This document shows, piece after piece, positions 1 through 19,751 of a stretch of 21,311 bases of DNA. The stretch comes from a virus, in the IMG/VR virus record IMGVR_UViG_3300020395_000131, positions 1-21,311 of that record; one strand, 5' to 3'. Positions within the stretch are counted from its first letter, which is position 1. Each line of letters starts with the position of its first letter. Under the pieces are notes generated by a model. The model was not told the DNA's origin, did no database searches, and saw nothing but the letters and a program-made list of their open reading frames with translations. Position numbers and translations under genes: made by a program.

Positions 1-743
1 GTAATGGCATCATCAGCTATAAGGGCTGAAGTAATAGCGTCATCGGCTATAGCGGCTGTAACGACTGCATCATCAGCTATAAGTGCTGAAGTAATAGCAT
101 CGTCAGCTATAAGTGCTGAAGTAATCGCATCATCTGCAATTTTAGCAGTAGTTATTGCATCATCCGCCAGATCAGCAGTTACAATAGTACCATCTACAAT
201 TTTTGCTGATGTTACTGTATCATCTCCAGGAACTACAGAAGCACCACCATTTACTAGTAATTGCGTTGGACGATATGGAAAAACAAATACAACACTCGCA
301 CTTTCTACATATACTAATGGTTGCGAAATTGCTGGCTCAGTAGCAGTTAGTGCACCCGCAGTTGAGGCATCTAAGTAGTACCACTGTCCTACTGTAAGAC
401 CGTGTGAAGATATTGTAAATCTTCCTGATTGTGCAACTGTAAAAGTATTACTATCAGCTACCGCAGTTACAACTCCGAGGGCTAAAGTAGTAGCAGCATT
501 TGCTTGTGCTTTTACCCAAGATGATCCATTATGACGAATACAATCTTTTGCTGAAAATCCATGACTAGACTGGGTTACGTCTGTGGTTGAGCCGCCTGCT
601 CCACCACCACCAATCTCTTTTACAGTACCGCCATCATTGATATATAACTTCTTTGCAGAAGTATCAATAGCAATCTCTCCAGATGCAATATCATCTGTAC
701 CTGGAGTGTTAGTACCTCTTTTAGGTTTAATTACTACGGCCAT
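1..743 (-). CDS. Tail fibre/adhesin with decapeptide repeats (C-terminus beyond left edge)
   Basis: An open frame starts at ATG 743-741 and runs without a stop off the left edge, so 247 codons are visible. AGGA lies about seven bases before the ATG, and the gap to the previous stop is 12 bases. Residues 1-45 (MAVVIKPKRGTNTPG, then SGEIAIDTSAKKLYIND) match the small adhesin head seen at the N-terminus of many phage fibres, with the pattern Gly-Glu-Ile-Ala followed by Leu-Tyr-Ile. A glycine-rich hinge follows (residues 45-51), then a beta-rich domain to about residue 176. From about residue 177 there are seven decapeptide repeats of the type ITSALIADDA, continuing past the edge. It sits last in the fibre cassette and is probably a distal receptor-binding or fibre-shaft protein. 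The receptor-binding C-terminus is not visible. The fibre role is inferred from composition and position. Confidence 0.8.
   Translation of the reverse strand, partial: MAVVIKPKRGTNTPGTDDIASGEIAIDTSAKKLYINDGGTVKEIGGGGAGGSTTDVTQSSHGFSAKDCIRHNGSSWVKAQANAATTLALGVVTAVADSNTFTVAQSGRFTISSHGLTVGQWYYLDASTAGALTATEPAISQPLVYVESASVVFVFPYRPTQLLVNGGASVVPGDDTVTSAKIVDGTIVTADLADDAITTAKIADDAITSALIADDAITSALIADDAVVTAAIADDAITSALIADDAI
6..215 (-). repeat. Seven 30-bp tandem repeats encoding Ala-Asp-Asp-Ala decapeptides
   Basis: Read on the minus strand, seven in-frame 30-base units run from 215 to 6 and continue past the edge. They encode VTSAKIVDGT, IVTADLADDA, ITTAKIADDA, ITSALIADDA (twice), VVTAAIADDA and ITSALIADDA. 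Units 4, 5 and 7 differ from one another at only two or three of 30 bases, so those copies look recently expanded or homogenised. Units 1-3 and 6 are more divergent. The repeat is protein-coding; it has no spacers and is not a CRISPR array. Confidence 0.9.
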
Positions 744-9733: not shown

Positions 9734-10384
9734 CTAATCCCTCCTATTAGCTGCGACTTTGTATATGTTTCCATCTGGATCCCCAGACAGAGTGTACGCT
9801 CCGTTTGCATTAGATAAAGCATTCCAGCCGTCATCTATATTTTGTAAATCAAAAGTAATAGGCTGCCCAGGAACTCTCAATTCTCCGTATAAAACTGGAA
9901 CAGGTCGTCCCTCGGGAATGACTTGTTCTGATCCTTGAAATAGATACCCATCCTCACCGTCTTCGCTCCCATCGTTATCTGTTGCAGGGTCTGGTGCCAT
10001 CATTTCTGCTAACCCCTGGCTTACCAGACTCAAGCCTATAGGAATTAGTATTGAACCAAGGGGTGGAACTATTATTCCTATTACTATTAGTACCGCCCCT
10101 ATGAATGCTTTGACAGCGCCCCTAGACCCTAAAGGAACTGGGGTAATAATTATATCCCCTTTATTTAAAGGCATTAAAAGCTCCTGATTGTGCTCAAGAT
10201 GTTGATCAGCTACTTTTATAGTAAACCCTATTTTTTTCTTATCAGAGTCAAGTAAATACTTTTTAACTCCTGTGTAATTAGCATCTAAATACTGTATGAC
10301 TTCTCTAACCGTTTCTGCTTTTACTTCAGCAACTTTCCCATATTTTTCACCTAATTCACCATTTAAATATACCTTACGCAACAT
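9734..10384 (-). CDS. I: Tail tip assembly protein, gpI-like
   Basis: A 216-residue protein of the lambda gpI family (lambda gpI is 223 residues). Residues 1-85 form a ubiquitin/beta-grasp-like domain (VYLNGELGEKYGK, then LLMPLNKGDIIITPVPLGSRG). Residues 88-127 are a long Gly/Ile-rich hydrophobic segment (FIGAVLIVIGIIVPPLG). An acidic linker (residues 135-145) leads to GYLFQGSEQVIPEGRPVPVLYGELRV (147-171), the signature of the family. In lambda, gpI is needed for tail tip assembly and acts with gpK and gpJ. GGAG precedes the ATG by nine bases, the start overlaps the end of the K gene by 11 bases, and the stop lies two bases before J. Confidence 0.9.
   Translation of the reverse strand: MLRKVYLNGELGEKYGKVAEVKAETVREVIQYLDANYTGVKKYLLDSDKKKIGFTIKVADQHLEHNQELLMPLNKGDIIITPVPLGSRGAVKAFIGAVLIVIGIIVPPLGSILIPIGLSLVSQGLAEMMAPDPATDNDGSEDGEDGYLFQGSEQVIPEGRPVPVLYGELRVPGQPITFDLQNIDDGWNALSNANGAYTLSGDPDGNIYKVAANRRD
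9740..9745 (-). promoter_or_regulatory. Perfect Shine-Dalgarno AGGAGG before J
   Basis: AGGAGG on the minus strand lies eight bases from the J ATG (9731-9729), and the TAG stop of the I gene (9736-9734) falls between them. It is the strongest ribosome site I see in the window and fixes the J start. Confidence 0.9.
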
Positions 10385-11069
10385 ATCTATATGCTCCTAC
10401 TAAATACTTATGCCAGAAAGGATACAAATTTTCTCTGCATGATAGTCTGTTAAATGCATGATGGTAGAAAATATCATTTCCTAAGTATACTCCACAATGA
10501 TCATTTACTTCTTCTTGTACTTTGAAGAGAAGTACATCATTTTCTTTCAACTCATCTAAATTCACGGGCTCTCCTTTCCACTTTTTAACCATCTCTGTAG
10601 TAAAATAATCTAATCCTTTATTATACCAGTTTTCTTCAAATAAGGCACGATGAGGGATTTCCATTCCTTGTTGAAATAAATAATCACGTACTGCTTCAAA
10701 ACAATCTGCTACCCCAAACTCATACTCTCTTCCATATAAATCCGTTGTATTATTTTCGGGTTCTAAGACAGTTAGATTCATATCAGGATAACTAAATATA
10801 TAATAAGGAATTCCTAAAGTATTACAAGCAACTTTATCAGTTTCGCCCGGCTCTGAACTACTACCAATATGATTATGTACTATTCCTACAATATCTGTAG
10901 TTGTTAATAATTTTATATATTCCTCTGAATCCATAATAAAATCATCATTATTAGTAGCAATATTAGTACAAGGGAACCACTGCTTTTTTCCTTTAACTAC
11001 TGATAAGACTCCACACCCCTCTTTAGGATACTCTCTATCGAAATGATCTTTTATGTCTTGTAAGTTCAT
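10374..11069 (-). CDS. K: Tail tip peptidase with JAMM and NlpC/P60 domains, gpK-like
   Basis: A 231-residue two-domain protein like lambda gpK. The N-terminal JAB/MPN domain has Glu17 (YPKEGCG) and the metal-binding H65-N-H67 followed at the correct spacing by Asp78 (EPGETD). The usual JAMM Ser before that Asp is Gly75 here. The C-terminal NlpC/P60 domain starts near residue 115 with Cys123 in GVADCFEAVRDYL, His191 in DHCGVYLGN, and His203/204 in FYHH. The NlpC/P60 part would cleave peptidoglycan peptides near the tip during assembly or entry. The ATG overlaps the L stop as TAATG with only a weak ribosome site, so expression probably depends on coupling to L. Confidence 0.93.
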   Translation of the reverse strand: MNLQDIKDHFDREYPKEGCGVLSVVKGKKQWFPCTNIATNNDDFIMDSEEYIKLLTTTDIVGIVHNHIGSSSEPGETDKVACNTLGIPYYIFSYPDMNLTVLEPENNTTDLYGREYEFGVADCFEAVRDYLFQQGMEIPHRALFEENWYNKGLDYFTTEMVKKWKGEPVNLDELKENDVLLFKVQEEVNDHCGVYLGNDIFYHHAFNRLSCRENLYPFWHKYLVGAYRYVA

Positions 11070-12562: not shown

Positions 12563-12963
12563 ACATATAGTCTTTTGAAGTTTGCATTAACATTATAATG
12601 ATTCGCATTATTGTATTGTTGAGACCAACTCTCACAAATTACTTTTATAGTTGAAACCTTATTACCATATTGATCAGTGCTTGTACTGTTATCATCGGGT
12701 ACTGTGACATTGAAAGAAGTTACCCCGGCTTTATCATTAAAAAACTTTATTATATCATCTGCTGCGGATTTTTCTCGATTTTTAAATTGCATAGCAAAAG
12801 TCTCTACAATATTATTAATCCCTGGTTTTGCTCTTTGCTGATAACCATTTCCAAACTCCGCTACTCTAACAGTAGGTTTATAGTTTCTTGAAAAATCATT
12901 ATCAGGACGTATAGTTGCTGTTGTAATATCTGTACCTGATATTTCAAATCCTATCTCTGGCAT
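12559..12963 (-). CDS. M: Minor tail protein, gpM-like
   Basis: A 134-residue protein of the lambda gpM/phage minor tail family (lambda gpM is 109 residues). The diagnostic stretch VRVAEFGNGYQQRAKPGINN lies at residues 32-51, followed by the amphipathic helix AADDIIKFFNDKAG (67-80). The C-terminus (VICESWSQQYNNANHYNVNANFKRLYV) is also typical. In lambda, gpM acts late in making the tail tip before tube polymerisation, together with gpL and gpH. The ATG overlaps the tape measure stop as TAATG and the stop overlaps the L start as ATGA. The place between H and L is exactly that of lambda. Confidence 0.92.
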   Translation of the reverse strand: MPEIGFEISGTDITTATIRPDNDFSRNYKPTVRVAEFGNGYQQRAKPGINNIVETFAMQFKNREKSAADDIIKFFNDKAGVTSFNVTVPDDNSTSTDQYGNKVSTIKVICESWSQQYNNANHYNVNANFKRLYV

Positions 12964-15900
12964 TATGCTACTCCATATGGGCTTAGTATCCCACCATTGC
13001 GTTTTTGATTTAATAGTTCTTGTTGTACTACATCTGCTATTTGATCTCCAAGTCTTTCCGCTGCGGCAGTATCACCTTCTGTATTTCTCTCGGTCCTATC
13101 ATTAGTGATATTAACAGTTACACCAACATTATTAGTTCCGGATCCTTTAGGCATTATAACTGGAATTGATTTACCATCAGGAAGAGGAACTATTGCTTCA
13201 TTATGCTTTCCTTCTCCGATAAGACCTAGCTGAGGGCCTGTTGCTATGCCTCCTGTTGCATATTTTTTAAAACCACCCTTGGCTATGCCCCCATCTGCGA
13301 AGCCGAAGCCACCACCACTCATAAAAGAGAAAATCTTTATGCCCGTTTGTACCAAGGACATAATACCACCAGTAGAATCAGTACCGGCACTTCCTCCTCC
13401 AAAGCTTCTAAATATATTCATAATGCTCCCAACACCTTCCTCAAAAAGCTTACCAATTTGTTCGAAATCTGTCGAAGCAGTCTTCATTGTATCTTCTAAC
13501 CCGTTAATATGATCATCAAATGTTTTGCTCATTTGGTCAATAAATATCAATCCGTCTATTTTTTCTTTAATTCTATTTGTATCCAGGATGTCTCTCTGGT
13601 CTGAAACAACTATTCGTTCTAACATGTCGCCTAACTCAGTACTTGATGAGCCTTCTATCCTTATACCCCCCTCGTTTGGTGGTGGTTCATCTCCCCAAGT
13701 TGGTAACTCTTGAGTTCTTGCAGCGTTAATTTCATTCTTTAAATCATTAAGGGTGTTTCTTAAGTCAGATAAAACTTGGTTAAGTAACGCACTAGTTTCA
13801 TCCTCCCCGGCGCCTCCTCCTGCTGAGGCTGCCTTACATGCACAAACTTCTTTGCCTATTAATTTAGCTAAAGGTTCTTGCCATATCTTCATATCTGCAG
13901 GGGTTGTAAAAGGATCCAAGTTTAATTTTATAGATGTGTCGCTGAACCTAACGAGGAGACCCTCGCCTTTTTCTAAATGGTCTTTAATACTTGTGCCTTC
14001 TTCTATCTTCAGACCTAGTCTAATACCAGCTGCGGCTATTCTGACTTCTTTTGGTGTTAGAATGGTTGGCTTAGTGCCTCCCTGTCCCCCAATTTGATCC
14101 TCTAGTATTCCCATACCCCAAGTGACCCAGCCTTCTACCATACTATCTATTGCGGCATCTACTGCTGCTTTGAGGGTCTTTATTAGTGCGTCTGTTAGAC
14201 TTGATTCATCACCTTTTATAAAGTCAGCTAAATTTGTACTTAGGCTTGTGGCAAAAGCTTCTCTGGCTGCATCGAGCATTCTCATACGTAGATCAAGTTG
14301 ACGCTCTAGGCTTTTTTCTTGCCACAGCAACTCGTCCTTTTCTGCCTCTAACTTCTTAATGTATTCGTCTTCTGCTTTTACCTGGGATTGCTTTGCTAAC
14401 TCAATCCTCTTTTCCATATCCTCCCTCGCCGCTACTGCTTTATTATAGGCGAGTGCTCTGTCGATTTCTGCTATTTCTAAAGAGGATTTTCCTATCTTTC
14501 TGCGGGTAGCATCTCTTTCTAATTGCGCTAGTTTAACGGAAGAGCCTATTTCTACGTCTCTAATTTTTTGCAAAAACGCTAACTGGTCTTGTAAAACCTT
14601 ATCTCTGTCTGCCCAGCCCTCGGCTTGTTTTACTGCATCGTTAGTAGTTATTAATTCCTCGGTTGTCTTGATTAAGTCATATACTTTGGTTCTAAAATGG
14701 TTTACAGCATGTGCTTGCTCTGTGAAAGCTTTAGTATTATTTTGAATTCCGTCTAACAATTCTTTAGCATTGCCACGCTGTGCATCAAAGAATGTATTAA
14801 TCCCCTCTAATGCTTTTATTTGGGTAGCATCTAGATCTAACTTTCCACTTTCAACGATGGACTCTACTAAAGCCTTATACTCTTTTTGGTAATCAGTTAG
14901 ATTGCTTGCTCCGACTTGTTCTTCAAATGCATTCAAATATTCTAATAAATTGCGAGCTTGAGTTAGTCCGGATGCTGTGACGTCTGCGAAATCCGCTATA
15001 AATGCTGTTCCAGTGTCGTACAGCGCTGTAAAATCTGTAGCTTCTTTTTTGGCCGCATTAAGCTCCTCATAATTTGACATCAACCCCTCGAACGTTCTCC
15101 AATATTCTCCCTCAAATGATTTAAACTCGGATAGCAGGTCTTTACCAAAAAACTTCTCTACCATTTCCTTAATACCTGAGAACATTCCTTTTGTTATCCA
15201 CTCGTTAAGTTTATCACCAACCTTACCTTGCATATTTTCGGGAACCATTCTAATAATACTGTTCCTCATTTGAAGTTCAAGATCCTTTAGCTCTTTCTCT
15301 CTTTCAGTAGTCCACTTTTCTATACCAGAATGAGCCATAGCGGTCTCTAGGCTTGAGGTGGCTTGGAGCATTTTATTATATTCTAATAGACTGTCGTTAA
15401 GTTTCAAGATTCGGTTTGCTTGAGCCTCTATGCCAGTAATTTTTGTTAACCCTAGTGCTAATTGTGTTGGATTGAAAGTAGAATATTCTTTATTTAGCTG
15501 TTTTGTATTAGTTGTAAGAGTTTTCATATCCTGATTTAAGTCATCCCATCCTTGACTTGATTTGATAATACCTAAAAGTTCAGCCATTTGAACCCCTAAA
15601 TCTTTTAGTAGCATTGCTAAGCCAACCCACCCAGCAGCTCGGAATAAAAAGTTAACTCCTTGAACAAATCGAGAAGCGGCTTTTTTCATAGCAGCCATCG
15701 CTATGCCCCATCCCGTTTGTGTTTTTTGTATCACAATACTAGCGGTTTGCTGAATTGATTGCCATCCTGTAACTATTTCAGTTTTGAAACCCTTGAACTC
15801 TTTCTTCATTACTTTCAAAGAAGCAATAAAAGTACGTTTTTGAGCCTCGCTCATTTGTGTTACTGCACCTTGACCTTGTTCGGCAAATCGTAGCATCCCA

Positions 15901-17069
15901 CTAACTTCCCGACTTGATAATTGCTCTCCTTTTTGCAATTTATCGAGCCCACTTCCTGGCTTGGCTTTGATATGAGAAACTGCGCCTCGTGCTGCACCGG
16001 CTGCATCTCCGGTACCAGTAATTCTAGCCTGCTCCATCTCTAGATCCTTCCATTTTTGTATATGAGTATCTAGGGCAGTATTTGCAGCTATAACATCCTC
16101 CTGAGCACTTGCAGCCCATGCGGTGAATCCTGGAATAATTTGCTTAAATATATTAGTAGCAAGAAGTCCTAAAGCAACCGTCAGAGACCCAATATTTTTA
16201 GTAAAAAACTCTGCGGTGGGCTCGCCAATAGCAGCAGTAAAACCTTTAACGTGTTTCATTACACGATCAAATGCGACCCCTAATCTTGCTATTTTATTGG
16301 CTTGTACACCTGTCGCTTTAGCTACTGCTGCATATTTCTTCTCTAATTGTCCTTGGACATCTACAAATACCGCCTGTTTCTTTTCGTATGTAGTTAGATC
16401 TTTTGCGCTCTTATTTAAAGCGATGGCATAATCATTTTGTGCATTCTCAAGACGTAGAATAATACCTAATTCGTCTAAAAGTTCGGGCTCTGCTTTTGTA
16501 ACACCCCTAATTAAACGATTAAAAGAGTCAGTAACATCTCGTCCTAATATTTTTGATAAATTTGCCGCTCCCTCGGATAGTTCCTCTATTTGTCCAGCAC
16601 CTAATCCGGAGGCTATACCAATGGCTGCTGCTTCTGAAGCGGCTTTAAAATCTAACATTCCCTCACTCGCAGCTTGTATATCTGAAGTAAGAGATTTCAT
16701 AGCAACTCCAGTTGCTCCTGTAAAAGCTATTTGAGATTCTTGCATGACTCGCATATCAGCGGCTTCTTTTAAAAATCTAAAAGCTGCTGAGATTGCAAAA
16801 ATATGAGAGGCTAAAACTGCATATGCAGGCACTAAACCACTATTAATGCTTTGCATAAGTTTTGCATTATTTTTAGTTGCGTTCGAAGACTGTTGAGAAA
16901 GCCCTTTTAAACGTCTATTAGTAGTTTGGGCTGATTTGCCCATCTTTTGGCCGGCGACTCCAGCATCATCCAGAGCAATTCCAAGCTTTTGGGCACTAAC
17001 TGCAACTTTTTGCATAGTGCCACCATCTTCGGTTCTGATATCAATCCATACTGTATCTTTTTTTGCCAT
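12963..17069 (-). CDS. H: Tail tape measure protein, gpH-like
   Basis: A 1368-residue, largely helical protein. Hydrophobic segments lie at about 79-100, 291-320 and 475-502. A long charged coiled coil lies at about 835-945 (EEIRDVE to RMRMLDAAREAF region), joined to the lambda-type tape measure C-terminal domain. CAC at residues 1076-1078 precedes a Gly-rich break. The end carries FADGGIAKGGFKKYATGGI and LIGEGKHNEAIVPLPDG (1257-1299), the tape measure C-terminal signature. It sets tail length and is ejected with the DNA. Lambda gpH has 853 residues; at about 1.5 angstrom per residue this one suggests a tail near 200 nm (inference, ignoring processing). The start overlaps the G-T stop as TAATG. 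Confidence 0.96.
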   Translation of the reverse strand: MAKKDTVWIDIRTEDGGTMQKVAVSAQKLGIALDDAGVAGQKMGKSAQTTNRRLKGLSQQSSNATKNNAKLMQSINSGLVPAYAVLASHIFAISAAFRFLKEAADMRVMQESQIAFTGATGVAMKSLTSDIQAASEGMLDFKAASEAAAIGIASGLGAGQIEELSEGAANLSKILGRDVTDSFNRLIRGVTKAEPELLDELGIILRLENAQNDYAIALNKSAKDLTTYEKKQAVFVDVQGQLEKKYAAVAKATGVQANKIARLGVAFDRVMKHVKGFTAAIGEPTAEFFTKNIGSLTVALGLLATNIFKQIIPGFTAWAASAQEDVIAANTALDTHIQKWKDLEMEQARITGTGDAAGAARGAVSHIKAKPGSGLDKLQKGEQLSSREVSGMLRFAEQGQGAVTQMSEAQKRTFIASLKVMKKEFKGFKTEIVTGWQSIQQTASIVIQKTQTGWGIAMAAMKKAASRFVQGVNFLFRAAGWVGLAMLLKDLGVQMAELLGIIKSSQGWDDLNQDMKTLTTNTKQLNKEYSTFNPTQLALGLTKITGIEAQANRILKLNDSLLEYNKMLQATSSLETAMAHSGIEKWTTEREKELKDLELQMRNSIIRMVPENMQGKVGDKLNEWITKGMFSGIKEMVEKFFGKDLLSEFKSFEGEYWRTFEGLMSNYEELNAAKKEATDFTALYDTGTAFIADFADVTASGLTQARNLLEYLNAFEEQVGASNLTDYQKEYKALVESIVESGKLDLDATQIKALEGINTFFDAQRGNAKELLDGIQNNTKAFTEQAHAVNHFRTKVYDLIKTTEELITTNDAVKQAEGWADRDKVLQDQLAFLQKIRDVEIGSSVKLAQLERDATRRKIGKSSLEIAEIDRALAYNKAVAAREDMEKRIELAKQSQVKAEDEYIKKLEAEKDELLWQEKSLERQLDLRMRMLDAAREAFATSLSTNLADFIKGDESSLTDALIKTLKAAVDAAIDSMVEGWVTWGMGILEDQIGGQGGTKPTILTPKEVRIAAAGIRLGLKIEEGTSIKDHLEKGEGLLVRFSDTSIKLNLDPFTTPADMKIWQEPLAKLIGKEVCACKAASAGGGAGEDETSALLNQVLSDLRNTLNDLKNEINAARTQELPTWGDEPPPNEGGIRIEGSSSTELGDMLERIVVSDQRDILDTNRIKEKIDGLIFIDQMSKTFDDHINGLEDTMKTASTDFEQIGKLFEEGVGSIMNIFRSFGGGSAGTDSTGGIMSLVQTGIKIFSFMSGGGFGFADGGIAKGGFKKYATGGIATGPQLGLIGEGKHNEAIVPLPDGKSIPVIMPKGSGTNNVGVTVNITNDRTERNTEGDTAAAERLGDQIADVVQQELLNQKRNGGILSPYGVA

Positions 17070-17922
17070 TAACCCTGTACATTATGAGTGTATGTTTTCC
17101 CACTGCTCTGCCGCTTTCTATCCGCCGCTTTTCTTTGTCTTTCACTTTCTTCTGCTCTGTGTTTAACTGTAGTGCCTTCTATCATTTTTATATAATATAC
17201 TGTTTCTTGATGGCAATCTACTTCATGTATATCTAATAAATCTTTAATTGGAGCCCAGTTTTTCCCTAAAAATGTTCCGTTCATTCCTTCGTACACGTCT
17301 TGTAGTAAGTCATATATAAAAAATGCCACTTGAAATTCTACAGGAAATATAGAAAGTTCGAGCGGCATTCTTTTAGGGTCGGGGTCTTCCCCCAACTGTT
17401 CGCAGATTTTTAAATATTTTTCATAGTCAATCTTTGATGTAGACTCTTTTACCCAACGTTCAAGTAACTTTTGTATTTCAGCTACTTGTTCCCAGTAAAA
17501 TTTTCTAAATCACCTACTGTTTCGGTTACCCATGTGTCAAAATCAGTTGCATTTTTCATTAACAACTCAGCATTATCTTGAGTGTAGGGTAATGTATCAT
17601 TAGGATCGAATTGCGAAACATCCACCAAAAGAAGCTCTTCTAAGTATGAATATTTTAAGCCCTCCCATCCTTTGACTACACCTTTGCAATATTCTGTAAG
17701 AAACTTATCATCATCGAGTTCCTCTACCATTTGTCGGTTTTTCTTATCCCATTTGCTAGATAAACATCGTTTTCTGAGTTTTATAAGCTCTGTTCTTGCT
17801 AAAAAACATAACGATACTGTCATTCCTTCGTATCCAGGATAATCAATAGATACGGTTTTACTAGGAGTTAGTAAACTTGCTAACGATACGGGTTCTTTCT
17901 TTTCTACTTTGGTCTCTGGCAT
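17069..17922 (-). CDS. GT: Tail assembly chaperone G-T fusion made by -1 frameshift
   Basis: The product is read from ATG 17922 to Phe codon 17499-17497, then slips back one base and continues YWEQVAEIQKLLERW to the stop at 17071-17069. This gives 284 residues (142 + 142), very close to lambda gpG-T (279). The T frame is open from the slip site onward. It has no ATG before residue Met in PKRMPLEL (the only early start is a TTG at 17395) and no good ribosome site, so a separate gene is unlikely. The T part has a conserved-looking core (YLKICEQLGEDPDPKRMPLE, then FPVEFQVAFFIYDLL) and a charged tail (RAEESERQRKAADRKRQ) ending THNVQG. By analogy with lambda, T binds tube subunits and G binds the tape measure. 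Confidence 0.85.
17461..17503 (-). promoter_or_regulatory. Programmed -1 frameshift signal: slippery A AAT TTT and stem-loop
   Basis: On the minus strand, A AAT TTT (17503-17497) is in the reading frame required for X XXY YYZ slippage near the end of G, 12 bases before its TAG stop. After an eight-base spacer (17496-17489), CAAGTAGC (17488-17481) pairs with GTTACTTG (17468-17461), an 8-bp stem with one G-U pair and a 12-base loop. Spacing and geometry match known stimulatory hairpins. The G stop codon lies inside the stem. Confidence 0.85.
17482..17922 (-). CDS. G: Tail assembly chaperone G
   Basis: The zero-frame product is 146 residues, compared with 140 for lambda gpG. It starts MPETKVEKKEPVSLASLLTP. 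The middle holds the chaperone-like stretch MTVSLCFLARTELIKLRKRC (34-53). Residues 75-98 (FLTEYCKGVVKGWEGLKYSYLEEL) are the most family-like part, seen in many tail chaperones between tube and tape measure genes. It is the first gene after the promoter at 17956-17984, with AAGGA about nine bases before the ATG. It should be the abundant product, with the G-T fusion a minor one. It is absent from mature virions in lambda. Confidence 0.88.
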   Translation of the reverse strand: MPETKVEKKEPVSLASLLTPSKTVSIDYPGYEGMTVSLCFLARTELIKLRKRCLSSKWDKKNRQMVEELDDDKFLTEYCKGVVKGWEGLKYSYLEELLLVDVSQFDPNDTLPYTQDNAELLMKNATDFDTWVTETVGDLENFTGNK

Positions 17923-17955: not shown

Positions 17956-17984
17956 AGTATAATTCAAAAGACACTAAATGTCAA
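17956..17984 (-). promoter_or_regulatory. Sigma-70 promoter for the tail assembly block
   Basis: On the minus strand, a perfect -35 TTGACA (17984-17979), a 17-base spacer and -10 TATACT (17961-17956) lie in the 113-base gap between the tube gene terminator and the G chaperone. The leader would be about 27 bases. The spacer contains TGTCTTTTGA, and GACATTTAGTGTC forms a small GAC-N7-GTC dyad that overlaps the -35. The same arrangement occurs at 2662-2690. Confidence 0.88.
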
Positions 17985-18005: not shown

Positions 18006-18033
18006 GAAGAAAAAGGGGCCGAAGCCCCTTGAG
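18006..18033 (-). terminator. Intrinsic terminator after the major tail protein
   Basis: On the minus strand, AAGGGGC (18030-18024), a TTCG tetraloop (18023-18020) and GCCCCTT (18019-18013) form a stable hairpin followed by TTT, C, TT. It begins five bases past the TAA of the tube gene. It should limit read-through so that tube protein is made in excess over the assembly proteins, which have their own promoter. Confidence 0.93.
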
Positions 18034-18035
18034 TA

Positions 18036-19751
18036 TTAAGAGTACGTAGATGGTGCGTAGTATTTAATATCTGTTATTTCATTAGCAGTATCAAATCCAC
18101 TTGGTAATGCATGGAAGGAACTTTCTAGTGAAATTACATCCTCAATAGAGTGAGAAGGTACTTCAAAGTGAACATTCGGCATTGTAATTACCAACGAAGG
18201 TGTTCCGGATTGAGCGGAACCACCAATCTTTAATGTAACTGCAAATTTGTTAACAACCTGTGCCATTGCACTTGTGGATACTAGATCATTAAAAAACTGT
18301 CTAGAAGTTCCTGAAGTGCTGTCTGAGTCACTAAGAGTAAGGTAACAAGTTGCTCCGCCAGTAATATTTCGTGCGCCTGTTACATGCTCTAAAGGCTTGT
18401 TAACAAACCCTAGTTCATCAGGTACCAAATACGTAATATTATTAGCAATAGTAAAACTTCCGCCTGTTAATGCAAGATTATATTTTCCATCGCTATTCGC
18501 ATTCATTCCACCTGGGAATATAGTCTTATTATCAGCAGTAATATCAATAGAGGTTAAACGATTACGAATAAAAGTATTCGTACTTGTTATTGCCTCATCG
18601 ATAGCCTGTGTAGCAGTAGTATTACTACTATTATCTCCTGGGGTTGCTGAAATGAGCCAGAAAGCACTTCCTTGAGCATTATCTGAATCAAACCAGATAT
18701 CTCCAGCCGCCATCTTTGTGCCATCAGTAGTAGTATCACTACCTATAGGCAGAGTCGCGTCTACATGTACACTTCCTGATACATCTTGGACTTCTTTAGC
18801 CATTCCTGACCAATTCAAAGTAGCAATACCTTCTACATCAAAGTCAATACTAACCTCATTAATCACAGCTTCTGGCAGCTTGTAAACAATCGGATTGGCA
18901 CTAGCTGTATCAACTACAAAATAGAAATGTAATGGATGTAATGCTGATCGATTGGATTCTGCAGTTACTATTGTATTATAGTCTGAGCCAGGTGTAACAA
19001 CCGGGCCACTAACTTTATTCACTGCACGTGTAAAAGTACTGACCTGACTTGCAGCGGTTGTTAATAAGGTTGCAACATCAAAAGTAAGACTAGTATCTCC
19101 TGCTGCTGCTCCTATTTTATCGCTTGTAACAGTAAAGGTATCATCAACAGCATAACCATCACCATTGGAAGCGACAGCAACAGTAGCAACGCCGCTACCA
19201 TTTACGGTTATAGTAAATGAGGCACCCCTTCCGTTATTAGGGCTTACTGTATAGTCATCTTCAGTAATTGTATAAGTTCCTGCAGCTCTATCAGTATCGG
19301 TTGCCCCAGTTAGATTATCTACAGTAGCTACACCAGTAACGTTACTATAAACATCTGCTCCGAACATTGCTGCCCAAAGCACTTCCTCCACGGCATGTAC
19401 ATCCGTTCCACTACCTGTTTCAGCACCTTTTGTGCCTGCAAGTGTAGAAGAAGCGTCAAGCGCAGTTTGTCCTAAAGACTTAAAAGGTCTAATATATGTG
19501 CTAAAAGACCATTCTGCGGGAGCAAGAGAGTCGGTAAACATACGACGTCCACGACGTGATATGCCTTTAGTACTTTCCATTTCCGAGAGCAGAATTTCAG
19601 AGGTATTTGTTGTCTGTGAGAAACTGTATCCATCCAAGACAGGAATTTCCCATACAGTACCCGCCCCTGCGGTATTATCATCTTCAGCATCTTGATTACG
19701 CATTTGTACAAACAAACGTGTATCGCGGCTAAAGTATAATTGGTCTGCCAT
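18036..19751 (-). CDS. Major tail (tube) protein with inserted domains
   Basis: A 571-residue protein in the place of lambda V (246 residues). AGGAG precedes the ATG by seven bases. The N-terminus (LYFSRDTRLFVQM, then WEIPVLDGYSFSQTTNTSEI and RGRRMFTDSLAPAEWSFSTYIRPF) and C-terminus (VNKFAVTLKIGG, VITMPNVHFEVPSHSIEDVISLESSFHAL) are those of a tube subunit. Two segments look inserted: about 138-231, a beta-rich unit (TYTITEDDYTV, ASFTITVNGSGVATVAVAS, DTSLTFDVAT) of a type found on phage surfaces, and about 327-390 with GDIWFDSD..FWLI. Both would decorate the outside of the tube. It is followed by a terminator, which fits a protein needed in many copies. Tube identity comes from both sequence pattern and position. 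Confidence 0.88.
   Translation of the reverse strand: MADQLYFSRDTRLFVQMRNQDAEDDNTAGAGTVWEIPVLDGYSFSQTTNTSEILLSEMESTKGISRRGRRMFTDSLAPAEWSFSTYIRPFKSLGQTALDASSTLAGTKGAETGSGTDVHAVEEVLWAAMFGADVYSNVTGVATVDNLTGATDTDRAAGTYTITEDDYTVSPNNGRGASFTITVNGSGVATVAVASNGDGYAVDDTFTVTSDKIGAAAGDTSLTFDVATLLTTAASQVSTFTRAVNKVSGPVVTPGSDYNTIVTAESNRSALHPLHFYFVVDTASANPIVYKLPEAVINEVSIDFDVEGIATLNWSGMAKEVQDVSGSVHVDATLPIGSDTTTDGTKMAAGDIWFDSDNAQGSAFWLISATPGDNSSNTTATQAIDEAITSTNTFIRNRLTSIDITADNKTIFPGGMNANSDGKYNLALTGGSFTIANNITYLVPDELGFVNKPLEHVTGARNITGGATCYLTLSDSDSTSGTSRQFFNDLVSTSAMAQVVNKFAVTLKIGGSAQSGTPSLVITMPNVHFEVPSHSIEDVISLESSFHALPSGFDTANEITDIKYYAPSTYS

Follow-up and report, generated by a model that had tools for sequence, protein, structure and literature searches.

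How does a virus translate a reading frame that carries half of a tail chaperone and possesses no credible start codon of its own? We encountered this question on a single viral contig of 21,311 bases, the whole of which was analysed and is referred to here as the window. Its minus strand encodes a siphovirus tail module comprising a tail terminator, a major tail protein, a G/T pair, a tape measure protein and tail-tip genes. The G/T pair consists of two short ORFs situated between the gene for the major tail protein (18036–19751, minus strand; PHROG 3575, 8.9e-44) and that for the tape measure protein (12963–17069, minus strand; 1368 aa; PHROG 3779, 1.4e-28), the start of the latter overlapping the stop codon of T in the sequence TAATG. 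Judged from the sequences of the window and its relatives, we are highly confident that the two ORFs are a G/G-T tail-chaperone pair joined by programmed −1 frameshifting, and that their carrier is a marine siphovirus with kinship to the T5 family. Tail chaperones produced by a −1 shift are as such already known; what appears to be new is a switch of recoding direction relative to T5 and a second hairpin within T. Below we describe the frameshift site, its conservation and its counterpart in T5-type phages, and discuss what the second hairpin may do.

Anatomy of the proposed frameshift site

Upstream of the pair, an intrinsic terminator with a UUCG loop (GGGGCTTCGGCCCC followed by TTTTT; 18013–18030, minus strand) lies 3′ of the major tail protein gene. 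A sigma-70-like promoter, TTGACA-17-TATACT, with 11 of 12 consensus matches (17956–17984, minus strand), is located directly 5′ of G, and similar TTGACA/TATAAT-type sites occur in relatives. With a conserved promoter behind a UUCG-loop terminator, G is predicted to open a transcription unit of its own.

Gene G (17482–17922, minus strand) encodes 146 amino acids, ends in a TAG stop codon, matches PHROG 313 ‘tail assembly chaperone’ (7e-10) and has T5-type homologues by tblastn. The T region (17069–17497, minus strand) lies in the −1 frame, contributes 142 residues past the slip site and matches PHROG 3914, likewise ‘tail assembly chaperone’ (1.8e-14). On the minus strand the G frame closes with GAA AAT TTT ACT GGG AAC AAG TAG, which contains A_AAT_TTT (17497–17503) as a slippery heptamer in frame with G. 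There follow an 8-nt spacer, ACTGGGAA (17489–17496, minus strand), and a putative frameshift-stimulating hairpin (17461–17488, minus strand) supported by folding and covariation, in which an 8-bp stem encloses a 12-nt loop; its arms CAAGTAGC (17488–17481) and GTTACTTG (17468–17461) pair with a single G-U pair. An earlier note on this DNA had described the in-frame heptamer, spacer, stem and loop, and its description proved exact at 17461–17503 on the minus strand. It had also placed the G stop codon within the hairpin: the TAG (17484–17482) is indeed inside, but it resides in the 5′ arm of the stem and not in the loop. The phenylalanine of the slip site is residue 142 of G and is followed by 142 residues in the −1 frame, so that translation agrees with the 284-residue fusion that had been predicted. 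The 71-nt site region folds with −19.1 kcal/mol (z −3.96), a value equalled by none of 200 shuffles.

In-frame heptamers of the X_XXY_YYZ type are found at 32 of the 6502 codon positions in the genes of the window, AAATTTT among them once. For this reason a heptamer near the end of a gene is by itself weak evidence, and it is conservation among relatives, not the sequence of the window alone, that places the site beyond chance. The longest ATG/GTG/TTG ORF of T begins with TTG and encodes 108 amino acids (17069–17395). As this TTG is the first in-frame start, ordinary annotation would lose 34 residues of T and miscall a TTG-start gene, precisely as the earlier note had warned.

According to the proposed mechanism, the majority of ribosomes would translate G and terminate at the TAG codon. 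A minority, delayed by the hairpin 8 nt further 3′, would move back by one base with tRNA-Asn and tRNA-Phe on A_AAT_TTT, re-pair with AAA TTT, bypass the TAG and thereby synthesise the 284-residue G-T. By analogy with lambda, G would coat the tape measure protein while the T part of G-T would recruit the major tail protein. We infer the slippage itself, its rate and the roles of G and G-T from sequence.

The site shares with lambda G/G-T its place between the major tail protein and tape measure genes, a −1 shift near the end of G, a similar fusion size and the proposed division of labour between the products (review PMC5009743). The features of a lambda-type −1 mechanism are present, namely the position of the ORF pair, a conserved in-frame heptamer near the end of G and a start-less open T in the −1 frame. 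The lambda heptamer is G_GGA_AAG, in contrast to the A_AAT_TTT of the window, which is moreover accompanied by a clear and conserved hairpin. Neither G nor T of the window matched any Pfam family, and membership of the lambda G/T family was thus not found by sequence; the comparison with lambda drawn in the earlier note is valid as an analogy, but the nearest family is that of the T5-type chaperones. Nearly the same heptamer operates in Rous sarcoma virus, whose −1 site A_AAU_UUA (of the A_AAT_TTN type of eukaryotic viruses) is also followed by a downstream structure, although genes and hosts are unrelated.

Conservation of the heptamer and stem in marine relatives

Viral contigs were searched with peptide patterns from within G that excluded the slip site, which yielded 147 distinct marine G sequences with amino-acid identities to one another down to about 50%. 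A_AAT_TTT stands at the corresponding position in every one of the 147. The codon preceding AAT TTT varies (GAA, CAA or GCA), its final base being A in every case, and the aspartate and leucine codons just 5′ of the heptamer vary freely. Elsewhere in the same G genes AAT accounts for 59% of asparagine, TTT for 80% of phenylalanine and GAA for 69% of glutamate codons. Given this background and the freely varying codons upstream, the fixed AAT TTT after A is not a matter of codon bias. Across these sequences synonymous drift has plainly been halted at the heptamer; the sequences are related and we therefore claim no exact probability.

The stem tells a similar story. Over 56 distinct sequences 96% of cells are paired, 36 cells have both sides changed, and the inner pair is C-G, U-A or A-U depending on the member. 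Covariation in this set exceeds that of all 500 shuffles and is well above that of slid versions. Averaged over 35 diverse members, the fold z reaches −3.3 at the site; of the other places scanned, all but one give far weaker values. On these comparative grounds the frameshift-site stem is a real RNA element. The earlier note had suggested aligning relatives to see whether heptamer and stem are conserved: the heptamer is invariant and the stem shows compensatory changes, but the stem is not universal, since one subgroup has it displaced and a few members lack an obvious hairpin. In L068–L071, L078 and L079 the G stop codon is 9 nt further downstream and the hairpin mostly about 7 nt further downstream, giving a spacer of about 15 nt, and the hairpins at the frameshift site of L046, L067 and L075 are weak. 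In deep members, L177 for example, the stem differs in sequence but likewise starts 8 nt past the heptamer.

T as a probable frameshifted domain

The −1 frame of T spans 139–146 codons in the closest set of relatives, in which one locus is cut by the end of its contig. In 134 of 139 relatives a stop codon in the −1 frame lies 0–2 codons 5′ of the heptamer. The first possible start codon of T varies widely in kind and place among the 139, and a Shine-Dalgarno-like motif precedes it in only two of them, which bears out the proposal that T is open from the slip site and lacks a credible start. Homology to the T of T5-type phages begins within the first residues past the junction (query residues 1–132 and 5–132). 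This pattern of starts, together with homology that extends from the junction, is that of a frameshifted domain, as far as sequence comparison can tell.

Two other origins for the T polypeptide were weighed. T might be a separate gene read from its own start, TTG or a later ATG, with the heptamer and the overlap arising by chance. Relatives do possess an in-frame start, and in 85 of the 139 the ATG at codon 44/45 is the first ATG; this common ATG is nevertheless buried in a strong hairpin, and the residues 5′ of such starts align with T5-type T over the same query ranges. With a first start so inconstant next to a heptamer that never changes, we regard a separate gene as very improbable, and the start-codon and Shine-Dalgarno counts led us to reject independent translation of T. 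A conserved start and ribosome site for T without a conserved heptamer, the pattern named in advance as contrary to frameshifting, was sought in the relatives and the opposite was found. Equally hard to credit is a −1 product of transcriptional slippage on the A/T-rich AAATTTT, in which three A precede four T, because runs of three or four are short for polymerase slippage, and the X_XXY_YYZ codon phase, the co-varying hairpin and the 8-nt spacer are what a ribosomal site needs. Programmed −1 frameshifting by ribosomes is the preferred reading in what follows.

T5-type phages and a proposed change of recoding direction

The nearest annotated relatives of G and T are those of T5-type phages (Demerecviridae), to whose chaperones (PHROG 313 / 3914) both are homologous with roughly 28–36% identity; in T5 itself the pair is p139/p138. 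We compared the junction in 14 T5-type phages: T5, Shivani, Gostya9, bombadil, My1, a Klebsiella phage, Gary, Brizo, PM135, PG07, 70E37.1, D254, AAS21 and Slocum (rows L082–L091, L093, L265, L267 and L268 of the sequence set). The junction of Aeromonas phage Akh-2, whose G reads with an early stop, was left out. Gene order is shared with the window. In all 14 phages T is shifted by +1 (equivalently −2) with respect to the frame of G, and all 14 carry TTT_CGT or TTT_CGA near the end of G. A +1 T frame with TTT_CGN, common to all the cultured members compared, is absent from the window, which, like all its marine relatives, is −1 with A_AAT_TTT. In an alignment of G with 20 rows, the phenylalanine of the T5-type TTT_CGN occupies the same invariant column as that of the A_AAT_TTT of the window, and the two recoding sites thus fall on a homologous codon. 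Only four codons, TTT CGT among them, leave room for a +1 shift in My1 and 70E37.1. Elsewhere in T5-type G genes TTT makes up 48% of phenylalanine codons and CGA is rare, yet the site uses CGA in several phages. Most T5-type records annotate T from an internal start, and that of Shivani contains a joined CDS.

Influenza PA-X is known to use TTT-CGn as its +1 motif (PMC3498833), and a +1 shift at this motif has been suggested for the tail chaperone pair of HF1-group haloviruses (PMC7230728). Both resemble the T5-type sites, as opposed to the −1 mechanism of the window itself. In T5-type phages we likewise infer that tRNA-Phe probably slips by +1 from TTT to TTC at the homologous phenylalanine codon. 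That the shift is +1 and not −2 is likely from the conserved motif and the logic of re-pairing. A −2 shift is less likely, as re-pairing of TTT to TTC in the +1 direction is available in all 14 phages and the codons before TTT differ (ACT, AAC, TCC, TTG and others).

An unrooted tree of 46 G proteins has a single branch (support 100/99) that separates the −1 group from the rest, and one switch of direction therefore suffices. The recoding direction would then have changed once between the T5-type and marine groups, at one homologous codon. Midpoint rooting, applied to a tree without outgroup, puts the −1 clade inside the +1 phages beside the Vibrio phages PG07, 70E37.1 and D254, and suggests that −1 is derived within a +1 background. 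Neither a +1 site in T5 nor the marine group was described in the literature covered, largely that outside the subscription journals. The announcement of phage Sugarland states that no frameshift signal was predicted, as in T5 (PMC6256483); T5, a textbook phage said to lack such a signal, hence gains a concrete candidate site. With related groups apparently making the same fusion via opposite shifts at one codon, the evolution of recoding becomes testable in terms of intermediates, costs and selection, and the selected trait at issue is the fusion ratio rather than the signal.

A second hairpin inside T

The fold scan reveals a second peak, confined to the marine clade, about 130–180 nt 3′ of the slip site. 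In the window it corresponds to a conserved RNA hairpin of about 20 bp, AAUGCCGCU...AGUGGCAUU (17321–17370, minus strand), whose base contains the first ATG of T and which has a terminator-like run of six T at its 3′ foot (17318–17323, minus strand). The motif is present in 120 of the 147 marine members, and in most of them the hairpin, AAAUGCCGCU...AGUGGCAUUU, has a stability of about −20 to −28 kcal/mol and is followed by TTTTTT. Codon choice within it departs from the background: the proline codon is CCG in 88 of 119 cases against 9%, the valine codon GTG in 110 of 110 against 9%, and GCA is used in 116 of 119 against 44%; in the TTTTTT run the second phenylalanine codon is TTT in 114 of 119. 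G-U alternates with A-U within the stem, which points to pairing at the RNA level, and stem covariation exceeds all shuffles in both foldings tried, with pairing counts that are variable mid-stem. The peak is no by-product of the conserved GEDPDP codons, as it arises from the next 50 nt. Rfam matched nothing in the window. The hairpin is an RNA element in its own right, so far without annotation, and the marine phages that carry it are a common group.

What it may do can be approached through the T5-type phages, all 14 of which carry, as read by eye, an intrinsic terminator just 3′ of T and ahead of the next gene, whereas in the window the TAATG overlap of the T and tape measure genes leaves no room for an intergenic terminator and the hairpin lies inside T. 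A stable hairpin directly followed by a T run has the makeup of an intrinsic terminator, and it is possible, if tentative, that the second hairpin serves as a terminator or attenuator within T. Ribosomes terminating on the G stop codon would leave the T mRNA bare, the hairpin would fold and RNA polymerase would stop, so that fewer transcripts would extend over the low-copy tape measure and tail-tip genes; frameshifting ribosomes might keep the hairpin open. The length and stability of the stem, its adjoining TTTTTT, the synonymous constraint, the position of termination 3′ of T in T5-type phages and the promoter of G all speak for such a function. Against it, the deeper marine lineages have neither the second hairpin nor a terminator between the genes, the stem exceeds those of usual terminators in length and has a lower G+C content, it was not listed by a consensus scan, and its pairing varies mid-stem.

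It is unlikely that the second hairpin is instead a distant stimulator of frameshifting or a mask that keeps ribosomes away from the internal ATG of T. Its distance from the slip site and the ATG it contains would suit these roles, but the lineages devoid of it (L177–L192 and L242–L261) keep the heptamer, and the hairpin is therefore not needed for the shift; as to masking, the Shine-Dalgarno motif that would have to be hidden is almost never present.

Combining attenuation with the switch described above gives the broadest proposal, and one that we consider quite improbable as a whole: that one chaperone family reversed its recoding direction at one codon, and that the T terminator hairpin of the marine clade is kept open only by frameshifting ribosomes, with the frameshift rate setting the expression of the tape measure.

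Other features of the contig

A search for hosts matched just two contigs of metagenome-assembled genomes, binned as Gammaproteobacteria and Euryarchaeota, which are possibly misbinned phage contigs. Among the tail-tip genes, 10374–11069 (minus strand) encodes a protein with fused JAB and NlpC/P60 domains, like lambda K. The protein end at 1–743 (minus strand), which runs off the contig, contains many degenerate repeats of the ‘ADDAITSALI’ type.
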